Program-made: the position numbers and the translations under genes
Shown: positions 4,756 to 17,021 of the stretch, one piece after another
Layout of the letters: each line of letters starts with the position of its first letter
How positions within the stretch are numbered: the stretch's first letter is position 1
The notes under the pieces: generated by a model
Database searches by the model: none
Seen by the model: the letters and a program-made list of their open reading frames with translations, nothing else
What the model was told of the DNA's origin: nothing
NCBI RefSeq assembly: GCF_001679925.1
Contig: NZ_LYUZ01000013.1
Span: forward strand, 36,109-79,638
Source of the DNA: Leisingera sp. JC1
GTDB lineage: Bacteria > Pseudomonadota > Alphaproteobacteria > Rhodobacterales > Rhodobacteraceae
Direction: 5' to 3'
Length of the DNA: 43,530 bases

Positions 4756-6555
4756 ATGACACAGGGGACGGCCCGGAAGCTGATATCCAGGCTCAAAACA
4801 TTTTCAATGCTGCCGCTGCTGCTGGCGGCGGCCGGCCTGAGCGCCTGGGCGGTCTATTCTGTGCCGGCACCCATTGTGGACCGGATGCTGGAAGCGGACC
4901 TGCGCAAGCAGGCCGACACCTGGCGGCGGGCGGTTCTGCTGCATCTTGAAAACAGCAAGGATGCCTTTGTGCTTGGTGATCTGGATGAGCACGACCAGGA
5001 ATACCTGGGCCTGGTGCCGGAAACCTCGGATGTGTACCGGCTGAAACTGTTTGAGGCGGATGGCACCATCTTCTGGTCGACCCGGCCCGAGGAAATCGGT
5101 GAGCGCAACACCAAGCCGTATTTTCAGTCCGTCGTCTCGCAAGGGCTGGTTTATTACAAGCATGAGGAAAAGCCCGCGACAGAGGTGGACGGGCTGCGCA
5201 CCGCGGCCAATGCGGACGGATCGATTCCGAACCGCGACGTGGCCGAGGTCTACTCCCCTGTTCTGCATGACGGCATCTTCATTGGCGCCATTGAGTTCTA
5301 TTCGGACATCACCGACACGCGGAACACCTTCATTACCCGTGTCCGCATCTCGCTGGCCCTGATTTCTCTGGTCACCGTGGCAGCGATGACCATCGTGTCG
5401 GCTGTTATTTACAAGGCCAACCGCCGCAGCCTGCGGCAGGTCGAGGAGCGTTCCGCCCGCGATCAGGAGGCGATGGCGAACCAGCTGCAACTGGCGCGGG
5501 AGGTGAAGCTGCTGGGCGAACTGAACGAGTGGCTGCAATCCTGCCGCTCACTGGGTGAGCTGTTTGACATGGTGTCGGAGTTCATGGGCCATCTGCTGCC
5601 GGATGCAGAAGGCAGCATCTATGTGTTCTCTAATTCGCGTGATGTGCTGGATGGATGCTCCAGCTGGAACGGCGGCAGCCACAAGGACCATATCCAGCCA
5701 GGCGAGTGCTGGGGCCTGCGCCGCGGGCGGACCTATGAGTTCGGCGCCTCGGAAGTCGAGTTCACCTGTGCCCATGCAGAACCGCACGACGGGCGCCCCT
5801 ATTTCTGCTTTCCGATTCTGGCGCATGGCGAGACGGTGGGCCTGATGCATCTGCGGGCGCGTCCCAGCCGGGCCGGGGATTTTGCCGGCTGCAAGCAATT
5901 GGCGCAGATGTGCGCCGAGCAGATCAGCATGGCGATTGCCAACGTGAAGATGCGCGATCAGCTGCACGACCAGTCGGTGCGCGATTCGCTGACCGGGCTG
6001 TTCAACCGCCGCCACATGACCGAATCCCTGCGCAAGTTCGTGGGCGCCAGCCAGAACAGCGGCAAGCCGCTGAGCGTGGTGTCGATCGACGTCGATCACT
6101 TCAAGAAGTTCAACGATAACCACGGCCATGATGCCGGCGACATGGTGCTGCGCGCTGTTGGCGCCGCGATGGAGCAGGCCTGCGATGGTGACGAGGTGGC
6201 CTGCCGCCCCGGCGGCGAGGAGTTCGCACTTCTTCTGCCGGGCGTGAGCCCGGACGATGCCATCACCAAGGCGGAGCTGCTGCGCCAGTCCATTGAGGAC
6301 GTAGTGGTGCGCTATGGCGAAAAGGCGCTGCCGCGGATCTCGATCTCACTCGGGGTGGCCCATTACCCGGCGCATGGCACCATGCCGCAGGATCTGCTGC
6401 GCGCCTCGGATGAGGCCCTCTATGAGGCGAAGGCCAAGGGCCGCAACCAGGTCTGCGTCGCCGAAGGCGCCAGCCCCCTGCCCCGCAACCCGGCAGCGCT
6501 GCCAGTTGCAGACAGCGCAGAGGATGCTGAGGACCGGCAGAAAGGCGCGGCGTAA
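4756..6555 (+). CDS. Membrane-anchored GAF-GGDEF diguanylate cyclase
   Basis: 599 residues that should make c-di-GMP from two GTP. An N-terminal membrane helix (about 16-36), a periplasmic sensor region (about 40-195), a second helix (197-219), a short coiled linker, a GAF-like domain (about 255-400) and a GGDEF domain (405-570). The active-site motif is GGEEF at 486-490, with the metal/substrate region DVDHFKKFNDNHGHDAGD. The inhibitory site that is RxxD in PleD aligns here with DGDE, so classic product inhibition may be missing. The start is ATG 4756 with AGAGGA in front. The signal sensed is unknown; the periplasmic part is dCache-like in length, but I cannot assign a ligand. Confidence 0.88.
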   Translation: MTQGTARKLISRLKTFSMLPLLLAAAGLSAWAVYSVPAPIVDRMLEADLRKQADTWRRAVLLHLENSKDAFVLGDLDEHDQEYLGLVPETSDVYRLKLFEADGTIFWSTRPEEIGERNTKPYFQSVVSQGLVYYKHEEKPATEVDGLRTAANADGSIPNRDVAEVYSPVLHDGIFIGAIEFYSDITDTRNTFITRVRISLALISLVTVAAMTIVSAVIYKANRRSLRQVEERSARDQEAMANQLQLAREVKLLGELNEWLQSCRSLGELFDMVSEFMGHLLPDAEGSIYVFSNSRDVLDGCSSWNGGSHKDHIQPGECWGLRRGRTYEFGASEVEFTCAHAEPHDGRPYFCFPILAHGETVGLMHLRARPSRAGDFAGCKQLAQMCAEQISMAIANVKMRDQLHDQSVRDSLTGLFNRRHMTESLRKFVGASQNSGKPLSVVSIDVDHFKKFNDNHGHDAGDMVLRAVGAAMEQACDGDEVACRPGGEEFALLLPGVSPDDAITKAELLRQSIEDVVVRYGEKALPRISISLGVAHYPAHGTMPQDLLRASDEALYEAKAKGRNQVCVAEGASPLPRNPAALPVADSAEDAEDRQKGAA

Positions 6556-6636
6556 GCCTCGGCTGGCCGCCAGCACCCGTTGCAGGCGCCGGCACTTTGC
6601 CTTGCACAATCGTTCACGGAGCGTACCAATGCGCAG

Positions 6637-7782
6637 ATGGATCTGCATCAGACATATCCGGGCCTGGATGACCTGAAACGCCGCGCCCGGCAGCGGCTGC
6701 CCAAGTTTGTCTGGGAGTATCTGGACAGCGGCACAGGCATTGAATCCGCCAAGGCGCAGAACCGCGCCGGGCTGGACCGGATCGGCATGCTGCCCTCGGT
6801 GCTGCACGGGCCGCTGGAGACCGACCTATCCGTTGATCTGCTGGGCACGAAGCACGCTTTCCCCTTCGGGGTCGCTCCTGTCGGCATGTCCGGGCTGATC
6901 TGGCCGGATGCGGAGGGCATCCTGGCCCGCAGCGCCAGAACGGCAGGCATTCCCTATTGCCTGTCCACCGTGGCCAGCCAATCGCCTGAGGACCTGGCGC
7001 CGCATCTGGGGGCAAATGCCTGGTTCCAGCTGTACCCGCCCAAGGATGAAGGCATCCGTGCCGATATGCTGGCGCGGGCGAAGGACGCCGGGTTCCGCAC
7101 CCTGGTGCTGACCGTGGATGTGCCGGTGGCCTCGCGCCGGGAACGGCAGACGCGTTCCGGCCTGACGCAGCCGCCGCGGCTGACCCCGCGTCTGCTGGCC
7201 CAGATCGCCATGCGGCCTGCCTGGGCGCTGGGAATGGCCCGGGCCGGGATGCCGCATATGCGGACCTTGGACAAATACATCAGCGGCGAACAGACCAACC
7301 TGCCACCAACGGCGCATATCGGATACCTGCTGCGCACCTCTCCCGACTGGGAATACGTGCACTGGCTGCGGCGCAACTGGGACGGGCCGTTTATCATCAA
7401 GGGGGTGCAGCGGGCTGCGGATGCGCAGCGGCTGCAGGAGGCCGGCGCAGATGCCATCTGGCTGTCGAACCACGGCGGCCGCCAGTTCGACGGCTGCCCG
7501 CCTGCCATCAGCCTGCTGCCGGAGATCCGCGAGGCCGTCACCGTGCCGGTGGTCTTTGACAGCGGCATCGGGGGCGGGCTGGACATCCTGCGGGCGCTGG
7601 CGCTGGGGGCGGATTTCGTCATGCTGGGGCGCGCCTTCCACTATGCGCTGGCTGCCCTGGGCGATGCCGGGCCGGCGCATCTGATCAGCATCCTGGCCAA
7701 GGACCTGGAGGCCAATATGGGCCAGCTGGGCCTGTCCAGCCTGGCCGGGGCATGCGGATTGCAAACCCGTCAACTGGGCTGA
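6637..7782 (+). CDS. FMN-dependent alpha-hydroxy-acid oxidizing protein (lactate dehydrogenase-like)
   Basis: 381 residues of the FMN-dependent alpha-hydroxy-acid dehydrogenase family (LldD, glycolate oxidase, mandelate dehydrogenase). It opens with a hallmark N-terminus (LKRRARQRLPKFVWEYLDSG), carries the catalytic His in SNHGGRQ, and has the phosphate-binding region DSGIGGGLDILRALALGADF followed by VMLGRAF near the C-terminus. It oxidises a 2-hydroxy acid to the 2-oxo acid; L-lactate is the most likely substrate, but specificity is not readable from sequence. I chose ATG 6637 because homologues begin close to MDLHQTYPGL; the frame is open from 6580. It stands alone between the diguanylate cyclase and pyruvate carboxylase. 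If lactate is the substrate, the pyruvate formed would feed the next enzyme, which is inference only. Confidence 0.85.
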   Translation: MDLHQTYPGLDDLKRRARQRLPKFVWEYLDSGTGIESAKAQNRAGLDRIGMLPSVLHGPLETDLSVDLLGTKHAFPFGVAPVGMSGLIWPDAEGILARSARTAGIPYCLSTVASQSPEDLAPHLGANAWFQLYPPKDEGIRADMLARAKDAGFRTLVLTVDVPVASRRERQTRSGLTQPPRLTPRLLAQIAMRPAWALGMARAGMPHMRTLDKYISGEQTNLPPTAHIGYLLRTSPDWEYVHWLRRNWDGPFIIKGVQRAADAQRLQEAGADAIWLSNHGGRQFDGCPPAISLLPEIREAVTVPVVFDSGIGGGLDILRALALGADFVMLGRAFHYALAALGDAGPAHLISILAKDLEANMGQLGLSSLAGACGLQTRQLG

Positions 7783-8104: not shown

Positions 8105-11100
8105 ATGACCGACTTCAAAAAAATCCTGATTGCCAACCGTGGCGAGATCGCGATCCGCGTGATGCGCGCCGCCAACGAAATGGGCAAACGCACCGTCGCC
8201 GTCTATGCCGAGGAGGACAAGCTCGGCCTGCACCGGTTCAAGGCGGACGAAGCCTACCGGATCGGCGAAGGCATGGGGCCGGTTGCGGCGTACCTGTCGA
8301 TCGACGAGATCATCCGCGTTGCCAAGGAAAGCGGCGCTGACGCGATCCACCCCGGCTACGGCCTGCTGTCGGAAAACCCGGAGTTCGTGGACGCCTGCGC
8401 CCGCAACGGCATCACCTTTATCGGCCCCAAGGCCGAAACCATGCGCGCGCTGGGTGACAAGGCCTCTGCCCGCAAGGTGGCGATTGCGGCCGGCGTGCCG
8501 GTCATTCCGGCAACCGAGGTGCTGGGCGACGACATGGACGCGATCCGCAAGGAAGCGGCCGAAATCGGCTATCCCTTGATGCTGAAAGCCTCCTGGGGCG
8601 GCGGCGGCCGCGGTATGCGTCCGATCCACGCCGAGAAAGAGCTGGAAGAAAAGGTGCTGGAAGGCCGCCGCGAGGCGGAAGCCGCCTTTGGCAACGGCGA
8701 GGGCTATCTGGAAAAGATGATCACCCGCGCCCGCCACGTCGAGGTGCAGATCCTGGGCGACAAGCACGGCGAGATCTACCACCTCTATGAACGCGACTGC
8801 TCGGTGCAGCGCCGCAACCAGAAAGTGGTTGAGCGCGCGCCTGCCCCGTACCTGAGCGAAGAACAGCGCGCCGAGCTGTGCGACCTGGGCCGCAAGATCT
8901 GCCAGCATGTGAACTATGAATGCGCGGGCACCGTCGAATTCCTGATGGATATGAACGACGGCAAGTTCTACTTCATCGAGGTGAACCCGCGGGTGCAGGT
9001 GGAGCATACCGTGACTGAGGAGGTCACCGGCATCGACATCGTGCAGGCGCAGATCCTGATCGCCGAAGGCAAGACCATTGCTGAGGCAACCGGCAAGGCC
9101 AGTCAGGGCGACATCCGCCTGAATGGCCACGCGCTGCAGACCCGCGTGACCACAGAAGATCCGCTGAACAACTTCATCCCGGACTACGGCCGCATCACCG
9201 CCTACCGTTCCGCCACCGGCATGGGCATCCGCCTGGACGGTGGCACCGCATATGCGGGCGGCGTGATCACCCGCTATTATGACTCGCTGCTGACCAAGGT
9301 GACCGCTTGGGCACCGACCCCGGAAAAGGCGATTGCCCGCATGGACCGCGCGCTGCGCGAATTCCGGGTCCGCGGTGTGTCGACCAACATCGCGTTCGTC
9401 GAGAACCTGCTGAAGCACCCGACCTTTTTGTCGAATGAATACACTACCAAGTTCATCGACGAGACCCCGGACCTGTTCCAGTTCAAGAAGCGCCGCGACC
9501 GCGGCACCAAGGTGCTGACTTATATCGCGGACATCACCGTGAACGGCCACCCGGAGACCGAAGGCCGCGCAGCCCCCGCTGCCGACCTGAAGGAGCCGCG
9601 CGCGCCGAAGGCGGACGTGGGCAACCTGCCCTACGGCACCCGTAACCTGCTGGAGCAGAAGGGTGCCCAGGCAGTGGCCGACTGGATGAAGGCGCAGCGC
9701 CAGCTGCTGCTGACCGACACCACCATGCGTGACGGCCACCAGTCGCTGCTGGCGACCCGGATGCGCTCGCTCGACATGATCAAGGTGGCGCCGGCCTATG
9801 CACAGCATCTGAACCAGCTCTTCTCGGTTGAGTGCTGGGGCGGCGCGACCTTTGACGTGGCCTACCGCTTCCTGCAGGAATGCCCCTGGCAGCGCCTGCG
9901 CGACCTGCGCGAGCGGATGCCGAACCTGATGACCCAGATGCTGCTGCGCGCCTCCAACGGCGTCGGCTACACCAACTATCCGGACAACGTGGTGCAGGAA
10001 TTCGTGCGTCAGGCTGCAACCACCGGCGTCGACGTGTTCCGCGTCTTCGACTCGCTGAACTGGGTCGAAAACATGCGCGTGGCCATGGATGCAGTGGTCG
10101 AGAGCGGCAAGGTCTGCGAAGGCACCATCTGCTATACCGGCGATATCCTGGATCCGAACCGCGCCAAATACGACCTCAAGTACTATGTCGGCATGGCGAA
10201 GGAGCTGGAAGCCGCCGGCGCCCACATCCTGGGCCTGAAAGACATGGCAGGCCTGCTGAAACCCGCCGCGGCCCGCCAGCTGGTCAAGGCGCTGAAGGAA
10301 GAGGTCGGCCTGCCGGTCCACTTCCACACCCACGACACCTCCGGTGTGGCCGGAGCCACCATCCTGGCGGCGGCGGATGCCGGCGTGGATGCAGTGGACG
10401 CGGCAATGGACGCCTTCAGTGGCGGCACCTCGCAGCCCTGCTTGGGTTCGATTGTCGAGGCTCTGCGCAACACCGACCGCGACACCGGCATCGACATCGC
10501 CAAGGTGCGCGAGATCTCCGGCTACTGGGAACAGGTGCGCGGCCAGTACGCGGCGTTTGAGAGCGGCCTGCAGGCCCCGGCCTCCGAGGTTTACCTGCAC
10601 GAAATGCCGGGCGGCCAGTTCACCAACCTGAAGGCGCAGGCGCGCTCCCTGGGCCTGGAAGAGAAATGGGCCGACGTGGCGCAGACCTATGCCGACGTGA
10701 ACCAGATGTTCGGCGACATCGTGAAGGTGACGCCGTCGTCCAAGGTGGTTGGCGACATGGCGCTGATGATGGTGAGCCAGGGTCTGACCCGCGATCAGGT
10801 TGAGGATCCCAAGACCGACGTGGCCTTCCCCGACTCGGTCGTCGACATGATGCGCGGCAACTTGGGCCAGCCTCCGGGCGGTTTCCCCGAAAGCATCGTG
10901 TCCAAGGTGCTGAAGGGCGAAGCGCCGAACACCGAGCGCCCTGGCGCGCATCTGGAGCCGGTGGATCTGGAAGCGGTCCGCGCGGATCTGTCCAAGCAGC
11001 TGGAAGGCTTCAAGGTCGATGATGAGGACCTGAACGGCTACCTGATGTACCCCAAGGTGTTCCTGGACTACATGGGCCGCCACCGCCAGTACGGCCCTGT

Positions 11101-11548
11101 GCGCACCCTGCCGACCAAGACCTTCTTCTATGGCATGGAGCCGGGCGAGGAGATCACCGCCGAGATTGATCCGGGCAAGACCCTGGAAATCCGCCTGCAG
11201 GCGATTTCCGAGACCGACGAGAAGGGCGAAGTGAAGGTCTTCTTCGAGCTGAACGGTCAGCCCCGCGTGATCCGGGTGCCGAACCGTCTGGTCAAGGCCT
11301 CGACCCAGGCCAATCCCAAGGCGGAAGCGGGCAACCCGAACCACGTCGGCGCGCCGATGCCGGGTGTCGTGGCGTCTGTCGCGGTGCAGGTGGGCCAGCA
11401 GGTGCATGAAGGTGATATGCTGCTGACCATCGAAGCAATGAAGATGGAAACCGGCATCCACGCCGAACGCGACGCGGTGGTGAAGGCGGTGCATGTTCAG
11501 GCCGGCGGCCAGATCGACGCCAAGGATCTGCTGGTCGAGCTGGAATAA
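8105..11548 (+). CDS. pyc: Pyruvate carboxylase
   Basis: 1147 residues, full length for the single-chain enzyme that carboxylates pyruvate to oxaloacetate (anaplerosis). Domains in order: biotin carboxylase with ATP-grasp (about 1-455; glycine-rich KASWGGGGRGMR and the catalytic stretch EVNPRVQVEHTVTE), carboxyltransferase TIM barrel (about 530-830; DTTMRDGHQSLLATR), the tetramerisation/allosteric region, and the C-terminal biotin carrier with the biotinyl lysine in EAMKMET (Lys1113). ATG 8105 follows GAGGGTGAC. It is monocistronic, with a clear terminator right after it. It needs biotin, and a complete biotin operon lies about 25 kb away. The opposite strand stays open over nearly the whole gene, which is a composition artefact. 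Confidence 0.97.
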   Translation: MTDFKKILIANRGEIAIRVMRAANEMGKRTVAVYAEEDKLGLHRFKADEAYRIGEGMGPVAAYLSIDEIIRVAKESGADAIHPGYGLLSENPEFVDACARNGITFIGPKAETMRALGDKASARKVAIAAGVPVIPATEVLGDDMDAIRKEAAEIGYPLMLKASWGGGGRGMRPIHAEKELEEKVLEGRREAEAAFGNGEGYLEKMITRARHVEVQILGDKHGEIYHLYERDCSVQRRNQKVVERAPAPYLSEEQRAELCDLGRKICQHVNYECAGTVEFLMDMNDGKFYFIEVNPRVQVEHTVTEEVTGIDIVQAQILIAEGKTIAEATGKASQGDIRLNGHALQTRVTTEDPLNNFIPDYGRITAYRSATGMGIRLDGGTAYAGGVITRYYDSLLTKVTAWAPTPEKAIARMDRALREFRVRGVSTNIAFVENLLKHPTFLSNEYTTKFIDETPDLFQFKKRRDRGTKVLTYIADITVNGHPETEGRAAPAADLKEPRAPKADVGNLPYGTRNLLEQKGAQAVADWMKAQRQLLLTDTTMRDGHQSLLATRMRSLDMIKVAPAYAQHLNQLFSVECWGGATFDVAYRFLQECPWQRLRDLRERMPNLMTQMLLRASNGVGYTNYPDNVVQEFVRQAATTGVDVFRVFDSLNWVENMRVAMDAVVESGKVCEGTICYTGDILDPNRAKYDLKYYVGMAKELEAAGAHILGLKDMAGLLKPAAARQLVKALKEEVGLPVHFHTHDTSGVAGATILAAADAGVDAVDAAMDAFSGGTSQPCLGSIVEALRNTDRDTGIDIAKVREISGYWEQVRGQYAAFESGLQAPASEVYLHEMPGGQFTNLKAQARSLGLEEKWADVAQTYADVNQMFGDIVKVTPSSKVVGDMALMMVSQGLTRDQVEDPKTDVAFPDSVVDMMRGNLGQPPGGFPESIVSKVLKGEAPNTERPGAHLEPVDLEAVRADLSKQLEGFKVDDEDLNGYLMYPKVFLDYMGRHRQYGPVRTLPTKTFFYGMEPGEEITAEIDPGKTLEIRLQAISETDEKGEVKVFFELNGQPRVIRVPNRLVKASTQANPKAEAGNPNHVGAPMPGVVASVAVQVGQQVHEGDMLLTIEAMKMETGIHAERDAVVKAVHVQAGGQIDAKDLLVELE

Positions 11549-12377: not shown

Positions 12378-12484
12378 GGGCTCAATCTCCCCTGAAGTTC
12401 CTCTTGTTTGACTGTCAAACGCACATCCTCTGCCTTTCCGTCGCGGCCCCGGCAGATTTTTTTCACCCGCCGCCGATTTTCCAC

Positions 12485-12512
12485 TTGCAGCCGACGGGTG
12501 GAGACCCTATTT
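12485..12512 (+). promoter_or_regulatory. Promoter of tRNA-Gly copy 1
   Basis: TTGCAG (12485-12490), 16-base spacer, CTATTT (12507-12512). The same layout with 16-base spacing recurs before the other two copies, which supports it. Start expected near 12519, about 15 bases before the mature tRNA. Confidence 0.65.
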
Positions 12513-12533
12513 CACCGCTCACCGGATGGCAGC

Positions 12534-12608
12534 GCGGGCGTAGCTCAGGGGTAGAGCATTACCTTGCCAAGGTAAGGGTCGTGAGTTCGAATCTCATCGC
12601 CCGCTCCA
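12534..12608 (+). tRNA. tRNA-Gly(GCC), copy 1
   Basis: 75 bases including an encoded CCA. The acceptor stem GCGGGCG pairs with CGCCCGC, the anticodon loop reads CTTGCCAAG giving GCC, and the T arm GAGTTCGAATCTC is intact. The sequence is identical to copies at 15223 and 15442. This copy lies immediately before the restriction-modification island. Confidence 0.97.
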
Positions 12609-12621
12609 TCGGGAAACGGAC

Positions 12622-12651
12622 AGGCCGCCCTTAGGGCGGCCTTTCGCTTTT
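12622..12651 (+). terminator. Terminator of tRNA-Gly copy 1
   Basis: Stem AGGCCGCCC (12622-12630), TTA loop, GGGCGGCCT (12634-12642), then TTCGCTTTT. Its equivalents follow the other two copies. Confidence 0.88.
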
Positions 12652-12751
12652 CGGCATTTCCGCATAGTCTGGCCGGGTGCAGAAAACCTTGTGCGGAATC
12701 GCTTTACCGCCTAGGAACAGAGCAAGAACAGAAACGGGCGGGCAGAGCAGA

Positions 12752-13711
12752 ATGCTGACATCGGTAGAACTATGCGCAGGTGCGGGCGGCCAGGCCCTCG
12801 GTCTTGAGGCGGCAGGCTTTGACCACACGGCGCTGGTTGAGATCGACAAGCACTGCTGCGCCACCCTGCGCCACAACCGGCCCAAGTGGAACGTGCTGGA
12901 AGAGGACGTCCGCAAGTTCAAGGAGGTCGCGGGCGACTACAAGGGCATCGACCTGCTGGCGGGCGGGCTGCCTTGTCCGCCGTTTTCCGTTGCGGGCAAG
13001 CAGCTGGGCGAGAAGGACGAGCGCAACCTGTTCGACGATGCGATTGAGATTGTCGATGCCACCCGCCCCCGGGCGGTGATGATCGAAAACGTGCGCGGGT
13101 TTCTGGATGCGGTGTTTCATGACTACCGCGAGAAGCTGAAGAAGCAGCTGTCGAAGCTTGGCTATGAGACCGACTGGCGGCTGCTGAATGCCTCGGACTT
13201 TGGCGTGCCGCAGCTGCGGCCGCGGGTGGCAATTGTTGCCCTGCGCAAGGAATTTGCCGGCCAGTTCAACTGGCCTGAGCCGCTGCCGCACAATCCGCCG
13301 ACCGTGGGTGCGACCCTAGTGGACCTGATGAAGGAGCGCGGCTGGCGCGGGGCGGACGATTGGGCCGCCAAAGCGGATGAGATCGCGCCAACCATTGTTG
13401 GCGGTTCCAAGAAACACGGGGGACCCGATCTGGGCCCGACCCGCGCGCGGCGCGCCTGGGCGGCCTTGGGCGTTGAGGGGCGCACCATCGCCAATGAGGC
13501 GCCGGACCCGTTCCACAACGACATGCCACGCCTCACAGTGCGGATGGTCGCGCGCATTCAGGGCTTCCCGGATGCCTGGCATTTCACCGGCGCCAAGACC
13601 AACGCCTACCGGCAGGTCGGCAATGCCTTCCCGCCACCGGTAGCCGAGGCCGTGGCGCGGGAACTGAAAGCGGCGATTGCCAAGCCGAAGCTGCATGCAG
13701 TGCGGGCTTAA
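12752..13711 (+). CDS. C5-cytosine DNA methyltransferase (M of the NaeI-type system)
   Basis: A 319-residue DNA (cytosine-5) methyltransferase. Motif I ELCAGAGGQALGLEAAGF (6-23) binds AdoMet, motif IV GGLPCPPFS holds the catalytic Cys75, motif VI is ENV (112-114), motif VIII PQLRPRVAIVAL, and motif X QVGNAFPPPVAEAVA. The motif IV form PCPPFS, in place of the commoner PCQ, occurs in a Dcm-like subfamily. With the next two genes it forms a restriction-modification-repair cassette. If the endonuclease cuts GCCGGC like NaeI, this enzyme should methylate a cytosine in that site; this is inference. Start ATG 12752 by motif I position; the frame is open from 12677. Confidence 0.92.
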   Translation: MLTSVELCAGAGGQALGLEAAGFDHTALVEIDKHCCATLRHNRPKWNVLEEDVRKFKEVAGDYKGIDLLAGGLPCPPFSVAGKQLGEKDERNLFDDAIEIVDATRPRAVMIENVRGFLDAVFHDYREKLKKQLSKLGYETDWRLLNASDFGVPQLRPRVAIVALRKEFAGQFNWPEPLPHNPPTVGATLVDLMKERGWRGADDWAAKADEIAPTIVGGSKKHGGPDLGPTRARRAWAALGVEGRTIANEAPDPFHNDMPRLTVRMVARIQGFPDAWHFTGAKTNAYRQVGNAFPPPVAEAVARELKAAIAKPKLHAVRA

Positions 13712-13768
13712 GGCCTACTTATCATTTAAGAGCCGAGGGCTGCGCCCGGCCCGGCGGGGTGGGAGCGA

Positions 13769-13801
13769 AGCGCCCGCCCCGTGGGGGACGGGACGGGCGC
13801 T
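13769..13801 (+). other. Hairpin in the methyltransferase-endonuclease spacer
   Basis: AGCGCCCG (13769-13776) pairs with CGGGCGCT (13794-13801); after one C/A mismatch CCCGT (13778-13782) pairs with ACGGG (13788-13792), loop GGGGG. An alternative, weaker pairing with the upstream CGGGGTGGG stretch (from about 13754) is possible. No T run follows, so it is not a simple terminator. A smaller GGGC-TGC-GCCC hairpin lies at 13737-13747. Confidence 0.6.
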
Positions 13802-13802
13802 G

Positions 13803-13820
13803 CCCGGCCTATCGGCCGGG
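13803..13820 (+). promoter_or_regulatory. Hairpin overlapping the endonuclease ribosome site
   Basis: CCCGGCC (13803-13809), TATC loop, GGCCGGG (13814-13820). The last Gs belong to the GGGAG ribosome-binding site (13818-13822) of the endonuclease gene at 13832, so the hairpin would partly hide it and lower endonuclease translation. Confidence 0.5.
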
Positions 13821-13831
13821 AGACACTTGCC

Positions 13832-14734
13832 ATGAAACAGAAGCTTCCCGACTGCCTGGTCGATTTCGGCCACCAGGATTTCAACGTCCTTCTCCATCTG
13901 GAGATGGAGATCACCCAGCGCGCGGGCGGATTGCTGGCGCTGGAACATGACGTGGCCTTCATGCTGCGCGACTGTATCGACGATGTGATCATGACGCCCA
14001 AGACCGGGCGGCGGTCCTACGAAGAGCTGGAGAAAACCGAAAAGACCTATATCGGGACGCGGGTGGAGATTGAGCTGCGGGCGCTGCTGGGCCTGCAGAA
14101 GGGACGGCTGGATACCGTGATCCTGGGCCAGGATGTGGACATCAAGCACACCATGGGCAGCAATTGGATGATCCCGACCGAGGCCGTGGGCAGTGCCTGC
14201 CTGCTGGTGGCCGCGGATGAGGCGCGGGCACGCTGTTATCTGGGGCTGATTGTGGCCCGGCCCGAGTATCTGACCGCTGGCCAGAACAAGGATGCCAAGC
14301 GCAGCATTTCCGCCGAAGGCTTCAAACACATCCAATGGCTGCTGAAGGACCACCCCTACCCGGCCAACTTCTGGCGCACCGCTGACGCGGAAACCGTGCA
14401 GGAGATTTTCACCTGCGACACAGGAAACGGACGCATGGCGGCGCTGTTCCGCCTGATGCAGCGCCGCCCGATTCCCCGCGCGGCGGTGGAGGCGGTGGCA
14501 CAGCAGAAGGACTTCATGCGCCGCATCCGGGCCGACGGCGGCCACGGCACCCGCGACATTCTGGGGCGCGAGCAGACCGTGGTGCTGGAAGGGCGCAAGG
14601 ATGCCCAGCTGATCAAGGCGCTGGACCTGCCGCCCTGTGCGGCCAGCGAATTCATTTCCTGCCGGATTGAAACGGACTACCATGCCCGCATGGCCGGACA
14701 ATCAGGGCATCCCATCGCGTGGCCGACAAGCTGA
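13832..14734 (+). CDS. NaeI-family type II restriction endonuclease
   Basis: 300 residues that align by eye with Lechevalieria NaeI (about 317). Shared landmarks are KTEKTYIGTRVEIEL, QDVDIKHTMGSNWMIPTEA and VAQQKDFMRRIRADGG. The catalytic set is preserved with exact spacing: Glu79, Asp94, Asp103 and Lys105 correspond to NaeI Glu70, Asp86, Asp95 and Lys97. The C-terminal half matches the NaeI CAP-like DNA-binding (effector) domain. NaeI cuts GCC/GGC and needs a second bound site; the same specificity here is inferred. The position aligned with NaeI Leu43, where Lys turns NaeI into a topoisomerase, is valine. The start is ATG 13832 after GGGAG. The 3' end overlaps the Vsr gene by 16 bases. Confidence 0.9.
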   Translation: MKQKLPDCLVDFGHQDFNVLLHLEMEITQRAGGLLALEHDVAFMLRDCIDDVIMTPKTGRRSYEELEKTEKTYIGTRVEIELRALLGLQKGRLDTVILGQDVDIKHTMGSNWMIPTEAVGSACLLVAADEARARCYLGLIVARPEYLTAGQNKDAKRSISAEGFKHIQWLLKDHPYPANFWRTADAETVQEIFTCDTGNGRMAALFRLMQRRPIPRAAVEAVAQQKDFMRRIRADGGHGTRDILGREQTVVLEGRKDAQLIKALDLPPCAASEFISCRIETDYHARMAGQSGHPIAWPTS

Positions 14735-15132
14735 CACCAGAACGGCGCAGCGCCAATATGGCGAAGATCCGCGCCAAGAACACCAAGCCGGAAATGCTGG
14801 TGCGGCGTATGGTGCATGGCATGGGCTACCGCTACCGGCTCTACCGCAAGGACCTGCCCGGCAAACCCGACCTCGTCTTTGGCCCCCGCCGCAAAGTGAT
14901 CTTCGTGCATGGCTGTTTCTGGCATCTGCATGACTGCCGCGACGGGCGCATCCCGGCCAGCCGCCGTGACTACTGGGAACCGAAGCTGCGGCGCAATGCG
15001 GAGCGTGACGCGGAACAACAGGCTGCCCTGCAGGCGGCGGGCTGGCAGGTGCTGACAATCTGGGAATGCGAGACCAAGGATATTGCTGCACTGAAAGAGC
15101 GCCTCGTAAACTTCCTCAAAACGGCAGAATAA
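14719..15132 (+). CDS. vsr: Very short patch repair endonuclease (Vsr)
   Basis: 137 residues of the Vsr family, which nicks 5' of the T in T:G mismatches made by deamination of 5-methylcytosine, protecting methylated sites from C-to-T mutation. The family opening is clear (LTPERRSANMAKIRAKNTKP), followed by GYRYRLYRKDLPGKPDLVF with the metal-binding Asp, FVHGCFWHLHDC with Cys/His zinc ligands, and a C-terminal GWQVLTIWECE. The start is GTG 14719, inside the end of the endonuclease gene in another frame; no in-frame ATG lies nearby. Its place in the cassette suggests that it serves the sites of the adjacent C5 methyltransferase. Confidence 0.93.
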   Translation: MADKLTPERRSANMAKIRAKNTKPEMLVRRMVHGMGYRYRLYRKDLPGKPDLVFGPRRKVIFVHGCFWHLHDCRDGRIPASRRDYWEPKLRRNAERDAEQQAALQAAGWQVLTIWECETKDIAALKERLVNFLKTAE

Positions 15133-15173
15133 TGCTTATCCACAGATACTTCCGAGGTTCTGAAATTTTCCTC

Positions 15174-15201
15174 TTGCGGCCAGTTTGTGAAAACCCTAAA
15201 C
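15174..15201 (+). promoter_or_regulatory. Promoter of tRNA-Gly copy 2
   Basis: TTGCGG (15174-15179), 16-base spacer, CTAAAC (15196-15201), equivalent to the promoter of copies 1 and 3. Confidence 0.6.
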
Positions 15202-15222
15202 ACCGCCTCACCGAATGGCAGC

Positions 15223-15297
15223 GCGGGCGTAGCTCAGGGGTAGAGCATTACCTTGCCAAGGTAAGGGTCGTGAGTTCGAATCTCATCGCCCGCTCCA
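15223..15297 (+). tRNA. tRNA-Gly(GCC), copy 2
   Basis: 75 bases identical to copy 1, including CCA. Flanks differ more from copies 1 and 3 than those two differ from each other (CCGAATGGCAGC before, CATTCGAAAGCGG after). Confidence 0.97.
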
Positions 15298-15311
15298 TTC
15301 GAAAGCGGAAC

Positions 15312-15333
15312 AGGCCGTCCTTCGGGGCGGCCT
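15312..15333 (+). terminator. Terminator of tRNA-Gly copy 2
   Basis: AGGCCGTCC (15312-15320), UUCG tetraloop, GGGCGGCCT (15325-15333) with one G-U pair, then TTCGCGTTTT. Confidence 0.85.
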
Positions 15334-15392
15334 TTCGCGTTTTCGGGCCGTCTTTCCCGCGGTATTTTCTTCACCATCCTGTCATTTTCCGC

Positions 15393-15420
15393 TTGCGGGT
15401 TGCGTGCGGATTTCCTATTC
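15393..15420 (+). promoter_or_regulatory. Promoter of tRNA-Gly copy 3
   Basis: TTGCGG (15393-15398), 16-base spacer, CTATTC (15415-15420). Each tRNA-Gly copy therefore looks like an independent transcription unit. Confidence 0.62.
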
Positions 15421-15441
15421 ACCGCGTCACCGGATGGCAGC

Positions 15442-15516
15442 GCGGGCGTAGCTCAGGGGTAGAGCATTACCTTGCCAAGGTAAGGGTCGTGAGTTCGAAT
15501 CTCATCGCCCGCTCCA
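15442..15516 (+). tRNA. tRNA-Gly(GCC), copy 3
   Basis: 75 bases identical to copies 1 and 2, with CCA. The flanks (CCGGATGGCAGC before and CATCGGGAAACG after) match copy 1 best. Confidence 0.97.
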
Positions 15517-15668: not shown

Positions 15669-17021
15669 ATGGCCCCAGTCATCTATCCCACCACCAATTT
15701 CACCGCGACCGAGCAGCTGTGCCTGGACCGCGGCGAAGGCATCTATGTCTATGACACCGACGGCAACAAATACATCGAAGGGCTGGCAGGCCTATGGTGC
15801 ACCTCGCTGGGCTACAGCAACACCGAGGTGATGGATGCAATCACCGAGCAGCTGCACAAGCTGCCGTTCACCCACACCTTCGGCGGCAAGACCCACAAGC
15901 CGATCATGGAGCTGGCCGAGAAGCTGAAGGCGATGGTCCCGGTGGAAGATGCCTATATCTTCTTTGGCAACTCCGGCTCGGACGCCAATGACACCCACTA
16001 CAAGATGCTGCGCTATTACTTCAACGCCATCGGCAAGCCGGAGAAACGCAAGATCATCACCCGCGAACGCGGTTATCACGGGGTGACCGTCGCCGCCGGC
16101 TCGCTGACCTCCCTGCCCGCGAATCTGGCGCATTTCGATGCGCCGCTGGAGGCGCTGCACGTCCTGCGTTCGGACGCGCCGCATTATTATACCGGCCGCC
16201 AGGGCAACGAGACCGAGGAGCAGTTCGTCGACCGGATCATCAACAACCTGGAAGAGCAGATCCTGGCGGAGGACCCCGACACCATCGCCGCGATGATCGT
16301 GGAGCCGATCACCGGCGCGTCCGGCGTGATCGTGCCGCCGGAGGGCTATTACGAGAAGCTGCAGGCAGTGCTGCGCAAGCATGGCATCCTGGTTTGGGCA
16401 GATGAGGTGATCTGCGGCTTCGGGCGTACCGGTGCCGATTTCGGCTGCACCACCATGGGCATCAAGCCGGACCTGATGACCTTTGCCAAGCAGCTGAGCT
16501 CTGCCTATTTCCCGATCTCCGCCTCGGTCATTCCGGGGTATATGTATGAGGCGATGATTGCGCAGACCAATGAGGTTGGCGTGTTCGGCCACGGCTATAC
16601 CTACTCCGGCCACCCGGCGGCCTGTGCGGCGGCACTGAAGACGCTGGAGATCTATGAGCGGGACAACCTGTTTGAACACGCCGCGGACGTGGGCGCCTAT
16701 ATGCAGGCGCAGCTGCGCGAGGTTTTCAACGATCATCCGCTGGTTGGCGAGGTCCGCGGCAAGGGGCTGATCGCGGCGCTGGAGCTGGTGTCGAACAAGA
16801 CCACCGGCGCCAGCTTTGACAAGGGCGCAGCAGGCGCCGCCGCGCAGAAGGCCTGCCAGGAAAACGGGCTGATCCTGCGGGCGGTGGCCGGCAACGCGCT
16901 GGCGCTGTGCCCGCCGATCATCATCACCAAGGATGAGGTCGACGACATGCTGGCACGGATGAAGACCGCGGTTGATACGGCTTATGCCGAACTCAGCGAG
17001 CAAGGCCTGATCGCCGCCTGA
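15669..17021 (+). CDS. Class-III PLP-dependent aminotransferase (omega-aminotransferase-like)
   Basis: 450 residues of the class-III (subgroup II) aminotransferase family. GLAGLWCTSLGYSN near the N-terminus, FFGNSGSDAND at the phosphate-binding region, Asp245 in WADEVICGFGRTG contacting the PLP nitrogen, and the Schiff-base lysine Lys274 in TFAKQLSSAY. Relatives transfer amino groups from taurine, putrescine, beta-alanine or other omega-amines to pyruvate or a similar acceptor. The true substrate cannot be read here. ATG 15669 follows CAGGAG at good spacing; the frame happens to stay open back through the tRNA genes, which is not meaningful. Single gene with its own terminator. Confidence 0.88.
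   Translation: MAPVIYPTTNFTATEQLCLDRGEGIYVYDTDGNKYIEGLAGLWCTSLGYSNTEVMDAITEQLHKLPFTHTFGGKTHKPIMELAEKLKAMVPVEDAYIFFGNSGSDANDTHYKMLRYYFNAIGKPEKRKIITRERGYHGVTVAAGSLTSLPANLAHFDAPLEALHVLRSDAPHYYTGRQGNETEEQFVDRIINNLEEQILAEDPDTIAAMIVEPITGASGVIVPPEGYYEKLQAVLRKHGILVWADEVICGFGRTGADFGCTTMGIKPDLMTFAKQLSSAYFPISASVIPGYMYEAMIAQTNEVGVFGHGYTYSGHPAACAAALKTLEIYERDNLFEHAADVGAYMQAQLREVFNDHPLVGEVRGKGLIAALELVSNKTTGASFDKGAAGAAAQKACQENGLILRAVAGNALALCPPIIITKDEVDDMLARMKTAVDTAYAELSEQGLIAA

Follow-up and report, generated by a model that had tools for sequence, protein, structure and literature searches.

The 43,530-nucleotide stretch of the Leisingera sp. JC1 genome analysed here (hereafter the window) carries, between two identical tRNA-Gly(GCC) genes, a C5 cytosine methyltransferase (M), a NaeI-family type II restriction endonuclease (R) and a Vsr mismatch endonuclease (V), all on the plus strand. 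The host is a marine bacterium of a genus in which every sampled genome carries R, and this NaeI-type restriction-modification (R-M) system appears to be a long resident of its locus in Leisingera, Phaeobacter and Pseudophaeobacter, and no recent or variable island. We consider it probable that the system is active and entrenched, that it acts on GCCGGC together with a repair partner, and that its loss is lethal; target, activity and lethality are what we infer. A bolder version, in which GCCGGC methylation is permanent, clade-wide and indispensable, the nuclease is exchangeable (at least three unrelated types) and exit by way of the tRNA genes kills the cell, is put forward tentatively, at somewhat below an even chance.

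Near-fixation at one locus in three genera

R was found in all 21 Leisingera genomes (one per species), in 7/7 genomes of Phaeobacter (the genus around Phaeobacter italicus, G339) and in 11 of the 12 from the Pseudophaeobacter group (around Pseudophaeobacter sp. EL27, G348); this gives 39/40 for the three genera, with the same locus wherever its surroundings were read. Gene order tRNA-M-R was kept in 21/21 Leisingera. The gene for a presumed pyruvate carboxylase, which forms the left anchor of the locus, served as a landmark elsewhere: in all nine newly probed R-positive genomes of the sister genera, R lay 1.7-3.1 kb past it on the same strand. The sole R-negative genome of the Pseudophaeobacter group (G370) gave no match to a probe made from half of the carboxylase, which 10 of the 11 probed genomes matched, so that its locus is taken to be missing or unassembled. 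V was intact in 19/21 Leisingera; one genome was without it (G008) and another (G009) held a remnant bearing an internal deletion. A tRNA copy in G009 that looks cut was considered as an integration site and set aside, because the assembly contains undetermined bases.

In the wider family, sampled at about one genome per genus, R occurred in 15 of 295 genomes, or 13 of the 293 outside Leisingera. This survey, which covers this family alone, does not sit well with the statement of the initial annotation that NaeI-type enzymes are known mainly from actinobacteria. Within flanks of up to 1.5 kb, the 13 non-Leisingera loci adjoined tRNA-Gly(GCC) in six cases, another tRNA in two and none in five. 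Twenty R-negative family genomes, mostly picked for having several copies, were also fetched around tRNA-Gly(GCC); in 18 of them the carboxylase lay within ~4 kb, on the same strand, of two to three adjoining tRNA-Gly genes with no insert, the exceptions being an array without carboxylase in reach (L166) and a single tRNA-Gly copy (L172). A further genome that lacks both M and R (G075) has the carboxylase (85% identical) and the aminotransferase that forms the right anchor; its array contains a small frame that is unrelated. Because of these uninterrupted arrays, together with G075, the R-M system most likely entered a pre-existing tRNA-Gly array, and the insertion is most likely old. In the carboxylase tree, the 37 R-positive loci of Leisingera, Phaeobacter, Pseudophaeobacter and Epibacterium formed one supported group; since its loci were found through R, this tree is no measure of R frequency.

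Several side observations concern the arrays and the occurrence of the system elsewhere. Frames other than R-M genes lie inside the tRNA-Gly(GCC) arrays of relatives (L036 7465-9105, L046 7180-8574, L149 849-1370); L036 and L046 have long frames for repeat proteins, which look RTX-like on visual inspection alone, and one further frame is small and unrelated. The array may therefore be a general insertion hot spot. On a plasmid of Loktanella salsilacus (NZ_CP072995.1 445015-445866), a NaeI-type R (50% identity) and a cytosine methyltransferase lie side by side, so that the system also has a version borne by a plasmid. In a record titled Nocardioides marinus (L038), carboxylase, M and R are all nearest to those of Leisingera and its relatives, and the record is probably mislabelled or mixed.

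The initial annotation had proposed that recombination between the tRNA repeats would allow the island to be lost or gained, and had looked to island-free arrays in related genomes for support. Such arrays do exist, but in other genera only; the three genera are near-fixed, and the situation that the annotation itself named as speaking against it, in which relatives have these genes here and an equal number of tRNA copies, largely corresponds to our result (R in 39/40). On this time scale loss or gain through the repeats is unsupported, given R in 21/21 Leisingera. More broadly, a mobile island exchanged through its flanking tRNA-Gly repeats and variably present among relatives would account for the identical repeats on either side, for the empty arrays in 18 of the 20 chosen R-negative genomes, and for related systems beside other tRNA genes (L091 and L092) or, in Loktanella, on a plasmid. 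It is contradicted for Leisingera by carriage in every genome, and it is hard to reconcile with the single exception among 40, which is also without a carboxylase match, with R and M distances that track those of the carboxylase (see below), or with a search at E <= 1e-5 in which R matched no phage record and only two plasmid records. Neither patchy presence among close relatives nor an integrase was encountered; the parts of the island that M, R and V do not cover measure 143, 120 and 90 nt, so that an integrase cannot fit there, and the initial annotation had likewise seen none, the rest of the window having had no integrase profile search. We regard exchange as a mobile island as highly improbable.

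The methyltransferase, NaeI-type endonuclease and Vsr genes

All three gene identities proposed by the initial annotation agreed with Pfam and Protein Data Bank (PDB) matches. M (12752..13711, plus strand, 319 aa) matched PF00145 at 1.7e-72, and its motifs PCPPFS and ENVRGF were present in 78/78 and 76/78 aligned rows, respectively (72 distinct genes). R (13832..14734, plus strand, 300 aa) matched the NaeI profile PF09126 at 1.5e-59, with 202 bits against a curated cut-off of 25, and the NaeI structure 1ev7 at 3.4e-31 (phmmer, 111.6 bits) over residues 41-279. This alignment extends to NaeI residue 277 of 317; R may have the second DNA-binding (Topo) domain of type IIE enzymes. The NaeI catalytic residues, which we take to be numbered E70, D86, D95 and K97, aligned with E79, D94, D103 and K105 of R; the four residues noticed initially were thus confirmed, and they were invariant in 77/77 rows (71/71 distinct proteins). 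Conversion of R from a NaeI-like enzyme towards a topoisomerase was also considered and dropped, as the position matching NaeI Leu43 is valine in 77/77 rows (71 distinct proteins). Titles of cited papers mention a 43K form of NaeI.

V (14719..15132, plus strand, 137 aa, GTG start) overlaps the R reading frame by 16 nt. It matched PF03852 at 2.4e-31, TIGR00632 at 1.9e-47 (160.4 bits, cut-off 97.85) and the Vsr structure 1cw0 at 1.6e-28, and it retains, under the same numbers, the five Vsr residues E25, D51, H64, H69 and D97 named in PMC12907096.

One methyltransferase lineage with three types of endonuclease partner

In order to identify the partners of M, 295 family genomes and 385 genomes of the class were searched at E <= 1e-90, which yielded 30 hits and 11 hits (9 new), respectively; the tally covers 39 M proteins, the one in the window included. 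An endonuclease adjoined 38 of them, of NaeI type in 19, NgoMIV type in 11 and HNH type in eight (two sub-types). Three of these partners were scanned with Pfam, namely the NgoMIV-type enzyme of L175 (PF09015, 1.6e-107) and two HNH enzymes, and the rest were assigned by tblastn likeness; the NgoMIV partners of L104 and L112 are cut by contig ends. The sole M without a partner (G260) is partial and has an internal stop. Conversely, M adjoined R in 15/15 R-positive family genomes, and R without an adjacent M was found in none of them.

On the M tree, a selection of 62 rows (60 different) from which most near-identical Leisingera rows were omitted and in which some branches are long and weakly placed, endonuclease type changed at least seven times. 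The NgoMIV-linked M of L104 falls within a supported group of 31 whose other members are NaeI-linked. NaeI recognizes GCCGGC, a site that one literature passage prints differently. NgoMIV cleaves G|CCGGC (PMC4081073). Because both endonucleases recognize this hexamer, the M lineage that they share most likely methylates within GCCGGC. R would accordingly cut at GCC|GGC, in the manner of NaeI, a prediction that the sharing of NaeI- and NgoMIV-type partners among M relatives supports indirectly.

Two loci are of separate interest for partner exchange. In L173 (G022, 5362-7573), an HNH endonuclease on the opposite strand sits between M and V, at the place of the NaeI-type R of relatives; this looks like an exchange of the nuclease alone, with M and V left as they were. 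At a Sphingomonas locus (L074, 4984-8105), M and V occur with both a NaeI-type R and a homologue of the HNH nuclease.

Inheritance, selection and recombination between tRNA copies

Across 31 loci, distances correlated with those of the carboxylase, with a Mantel r of 0.68 for R and 0.82 for M, which suggests that the system has been inherited mainly vertically since its entry. Mean distances between genera were 0.096 for M, 0.084 for the carboxylase and 0.276 for R. Within Leisingera, ratios of nonsynonymous to synonymous substitution (dN/dS), averaged within 10-12 loci with row sets that differ by gene, were 0.024 for M, 0.180 for R and 0.170 for V, and 0.059 and 0.066 for the neighbouring carboxylase and aminotransferase, respectively. 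M, R and V are all under purifying selection.

The low value for M, below that of the neighbouring housekeeping genes, is what would be expected if M had turned into a regulatory (epigenetic) enzyme with R as a passenger. Between genera, however, M has diverged no less than the carboxylase; an endonuclease adjoins 38/39 M proteins, and R is itself under selection with its active site intact. The solitary YGCCGGCR methyltransferase of Caulobacter had no effect on regulation in the absence of VsrA, under the conditions of that study (PMC12907096). A regulatory M with R as passenger is very unlikely.

The tRNA-Gly copies were identical to one another within 38 of 39 three-copy rows (37/38 distinct loci), yet species differ, with three alleles among them. 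On the carboxylase tree, the Leisingera-Phaeobacter-Pseudophaeobacter-Epibacterium group requires at least six changes of allele, counted over 36 rows, with L044 left out and L050 scored by one of its alleles. Identity within loci despite three alleles amounts to concerted change and points to recombination between the tRNA copies; in most loci this change spans the island. Joint deletion of M and R, which would be expected where crossover occurs between the tRNA copies instead of conversion, was seen nowhere in the three genera.

GCCGGC sites in genomes with and without the system

The genome contains 5,041 GCCGGC sites, as compared with 4,292 in the reversed control; if R is active, a genome with this many sites and no avoidance of them depends on methylation. 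Counted over whole genomes, GCCGGC relative to the control word CGGCCG stood at 1.06-1.52 (median 1.20) in the 19 Leisingera that are V-positive, and at 0.62 and 1.17 in the two that lack an intact V. The 23 R-positive genomes outside Leisingera gave 0.47-1.55 (median 0.88), and the 16 R-negative ones 0.50-2.10 (median 0.81). In rank tests uncorrected for kinship, V-positive Leisingera differed from other R-positive (p = 9e-5) and from R-negative genomes (p = 3e-5), and the latter two groups gave p = 0.25. A higher ratio in the presence of V is the direction expected if V protects sites, but we draw no conclusion on such an effect because the G+C content of the fetched stretches differs (0.629 vs 0.576). 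Against a Markov expectation, observed/expected GCCGGC was 0.69 both in V-positive Leisingera and in R-negative genomes; in the other R-positive, V-negative genomes the site was rarer (0.48-0.51), as were control words, and control palindromes such as CCGCGG also shift in this comparison.

Why the system stays

In the reading that we favour, M would methylate one cytosine within GCCGGC, R would cut unmethylated GCCGGC of incoming DNA, and V would mend the T:G mismatches that arise from deamination of methylated cytosine. Entry of the system into the existing tRNA-Gly(GCC) array by the pyruvate carboxylase gene would date from an ancestor of the three genera, and the genome would from then on be hostage to M: upon a tRNA-to-tRNA loss of M and R, M would be diluted and residual R would cut the GCCGGC sites of the chromosome. 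Killing would in that case be the cause of retention. We arrived at this hostage model from the recombination between tRNA copies, from the lack of observed deletions, and from the resistance of chromosomal R-M systems to replacement by allelic DNA, as described in a review (PMC3874152). V may add to the hostage effect in Leisingera, because the Vsr-like protein of Caulobacter puts a cost on losing the solitary YGCCGGCR methyltransferase (PMC12907096).

Several observations weigh against this hostage model. Retention could equally reflect a plain benefit in phage defence; avoidance of GCCGGC is absent in Leisingera, whose genomes thus bear no footprint of restriction pressure; and the genomes of Phaeobacter and the Pseudophaeobacter group come without completeness values. 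V is dispensable, as two of the 21 Leisingera are without an intact copy, and in the sister genera none of the loci read showed a V next to R. The tree of R resembles that of the carboxylase without matching it fully, so that some recombination of the locus is likely, and the tRNA copies differ in L044 and in the two-copy loci L050 and L161.

A fixed system kept for its phage-defence payoff, with no hostage effect, would be consistent with the purifying selection on all three genes, with the catalytic residues retained in 71/71 distinct R proteins and with the other inserts that relatives keep in their tRNA-Gly arrays, such as the long repeat-protein frames of L036 and L046. Such a benefit by itself leaves unexplained why M is so rarely found without an endonuclease (38/39 paired), and we think defence alone unlikely.

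Layout of the locus and neighbouring genes

ARAGORN predicted three tRNA-Gly(GCC) genes on the plus strand, copy 1 at 12534..12608, copy 2 at 15223..15297 and copy 3 at 15442..15516; M, R and V lie between copies 1 and 2. Searching the genome of JC1 with the 75-base tRNA returned three copies at 100% and otherwise one 27-base partial match, so the three identical genes described initially stand. Beyond the tRNA itself, a unit of 181 nt is repeated around each copy (12456-12636 at copy 1), and identity to copy 1 across this unit was 85% for copy 3 and 75% for copy 2; the earlier remark that copies 1 and 3 share the most flanking sequence holds in this comparison against copy 1. An inverted repeat 3' of copy 1 (12614..12650, plus strand) resembles a terminator, presumably acts as one and parts copy 1 from M.

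To the left, an open reading frame at 8105..11548 (plus strand) adjoins the locus in relatives; we take it to encode pyruvate carboxylase, a name given from its sequence. To the right, a class-III aminotransferase gene (15669..17021, plus strand; PF00202, 7.3e-93) is likewise conserved in relatives, and a Pfam scan of the neighbours identified, besides this enzyme, a DUF2314 protein. Between M and R lies a GC-rich block with repeats (13735-13825), and M-R spacing varies among relatives; the block was rejected as a genomic repeat, its 20-mer occurring once in the JC1 genome and in 3/21 Leisingera genomes. Directly 3' of V, at 15136-15144, stands TTATCCACA, which is also present in L033 and L038 and which we take to be DnaA-box-like; it may be due to chance.

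Comparison with known systems and significance

NaeI, a type IIE enzyme with the site GCCGGC, has an adjacent C5 methyltransferase of its own, as R does here. R further resembles it in matching the Pfam NaeI family and 1ev7 and in the four catalytic residues; the similarity is moderate (phmmer 111.6 bits), however, and the linked Vsr gene and the valine at the Leu43 position set the present system apart. To our knowledge, E. coli Dcm has no restriction partner. Like M and V, Dcm and Vsr of E. coli are a C5 methyltransferase and a Vsr protein in one gene cluster (PMC12907096), and E25, D51, H64, H69 and D97 of the E. coli Vsr are retained in V; the target of Dcm differs from that proposed for M. 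Caulobacter ScmA makes C5 methylations in YGCCGGCR, and VsrA renders its loss costly (PMC12907096). The likeness to our system lies in a C5 methyltransferase plus a Vsr-like protein; ScmA is solitary and unlinked to vsrA, whereas M, R and V are contiguous. Relatives of M that are 54-81% identical pair with NgoMIV-type endonucleases (type IIF, G|CCGGC) in 11 of 39 cases, but the NgoMIV endonuclease belongs to PF09015 and R to PF09126. We found no published work on NaeI in Roseobacter, nor on restriction-modification or methyltransferases of Leisingera, in a search outside of which most subscription journals lie.

R-M systems usually show fast turnover. One survey places about 4% of them in the core genome of a species (PMC4176335). 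Here, three genera have a system fixed at one locus in almost every species sampled, although the repeats on either side could delete it in one step; the locus is thus a natural setting for asking whether R-M persists by defence or by holding its host hostage, and because of the tRNA repeats the hypothesis on retention lends itself to direct testing. Vsr, kept in 19/21 Leisingera but not seen next to R in the loci read from the sister genera, also allows the cost of cytosine methylation to be compared. If the bolder version outlined at the start is true, the locus would show in nature whether post-segregational killing is what holds an R-M system in the chromosome for as long as several genera last.

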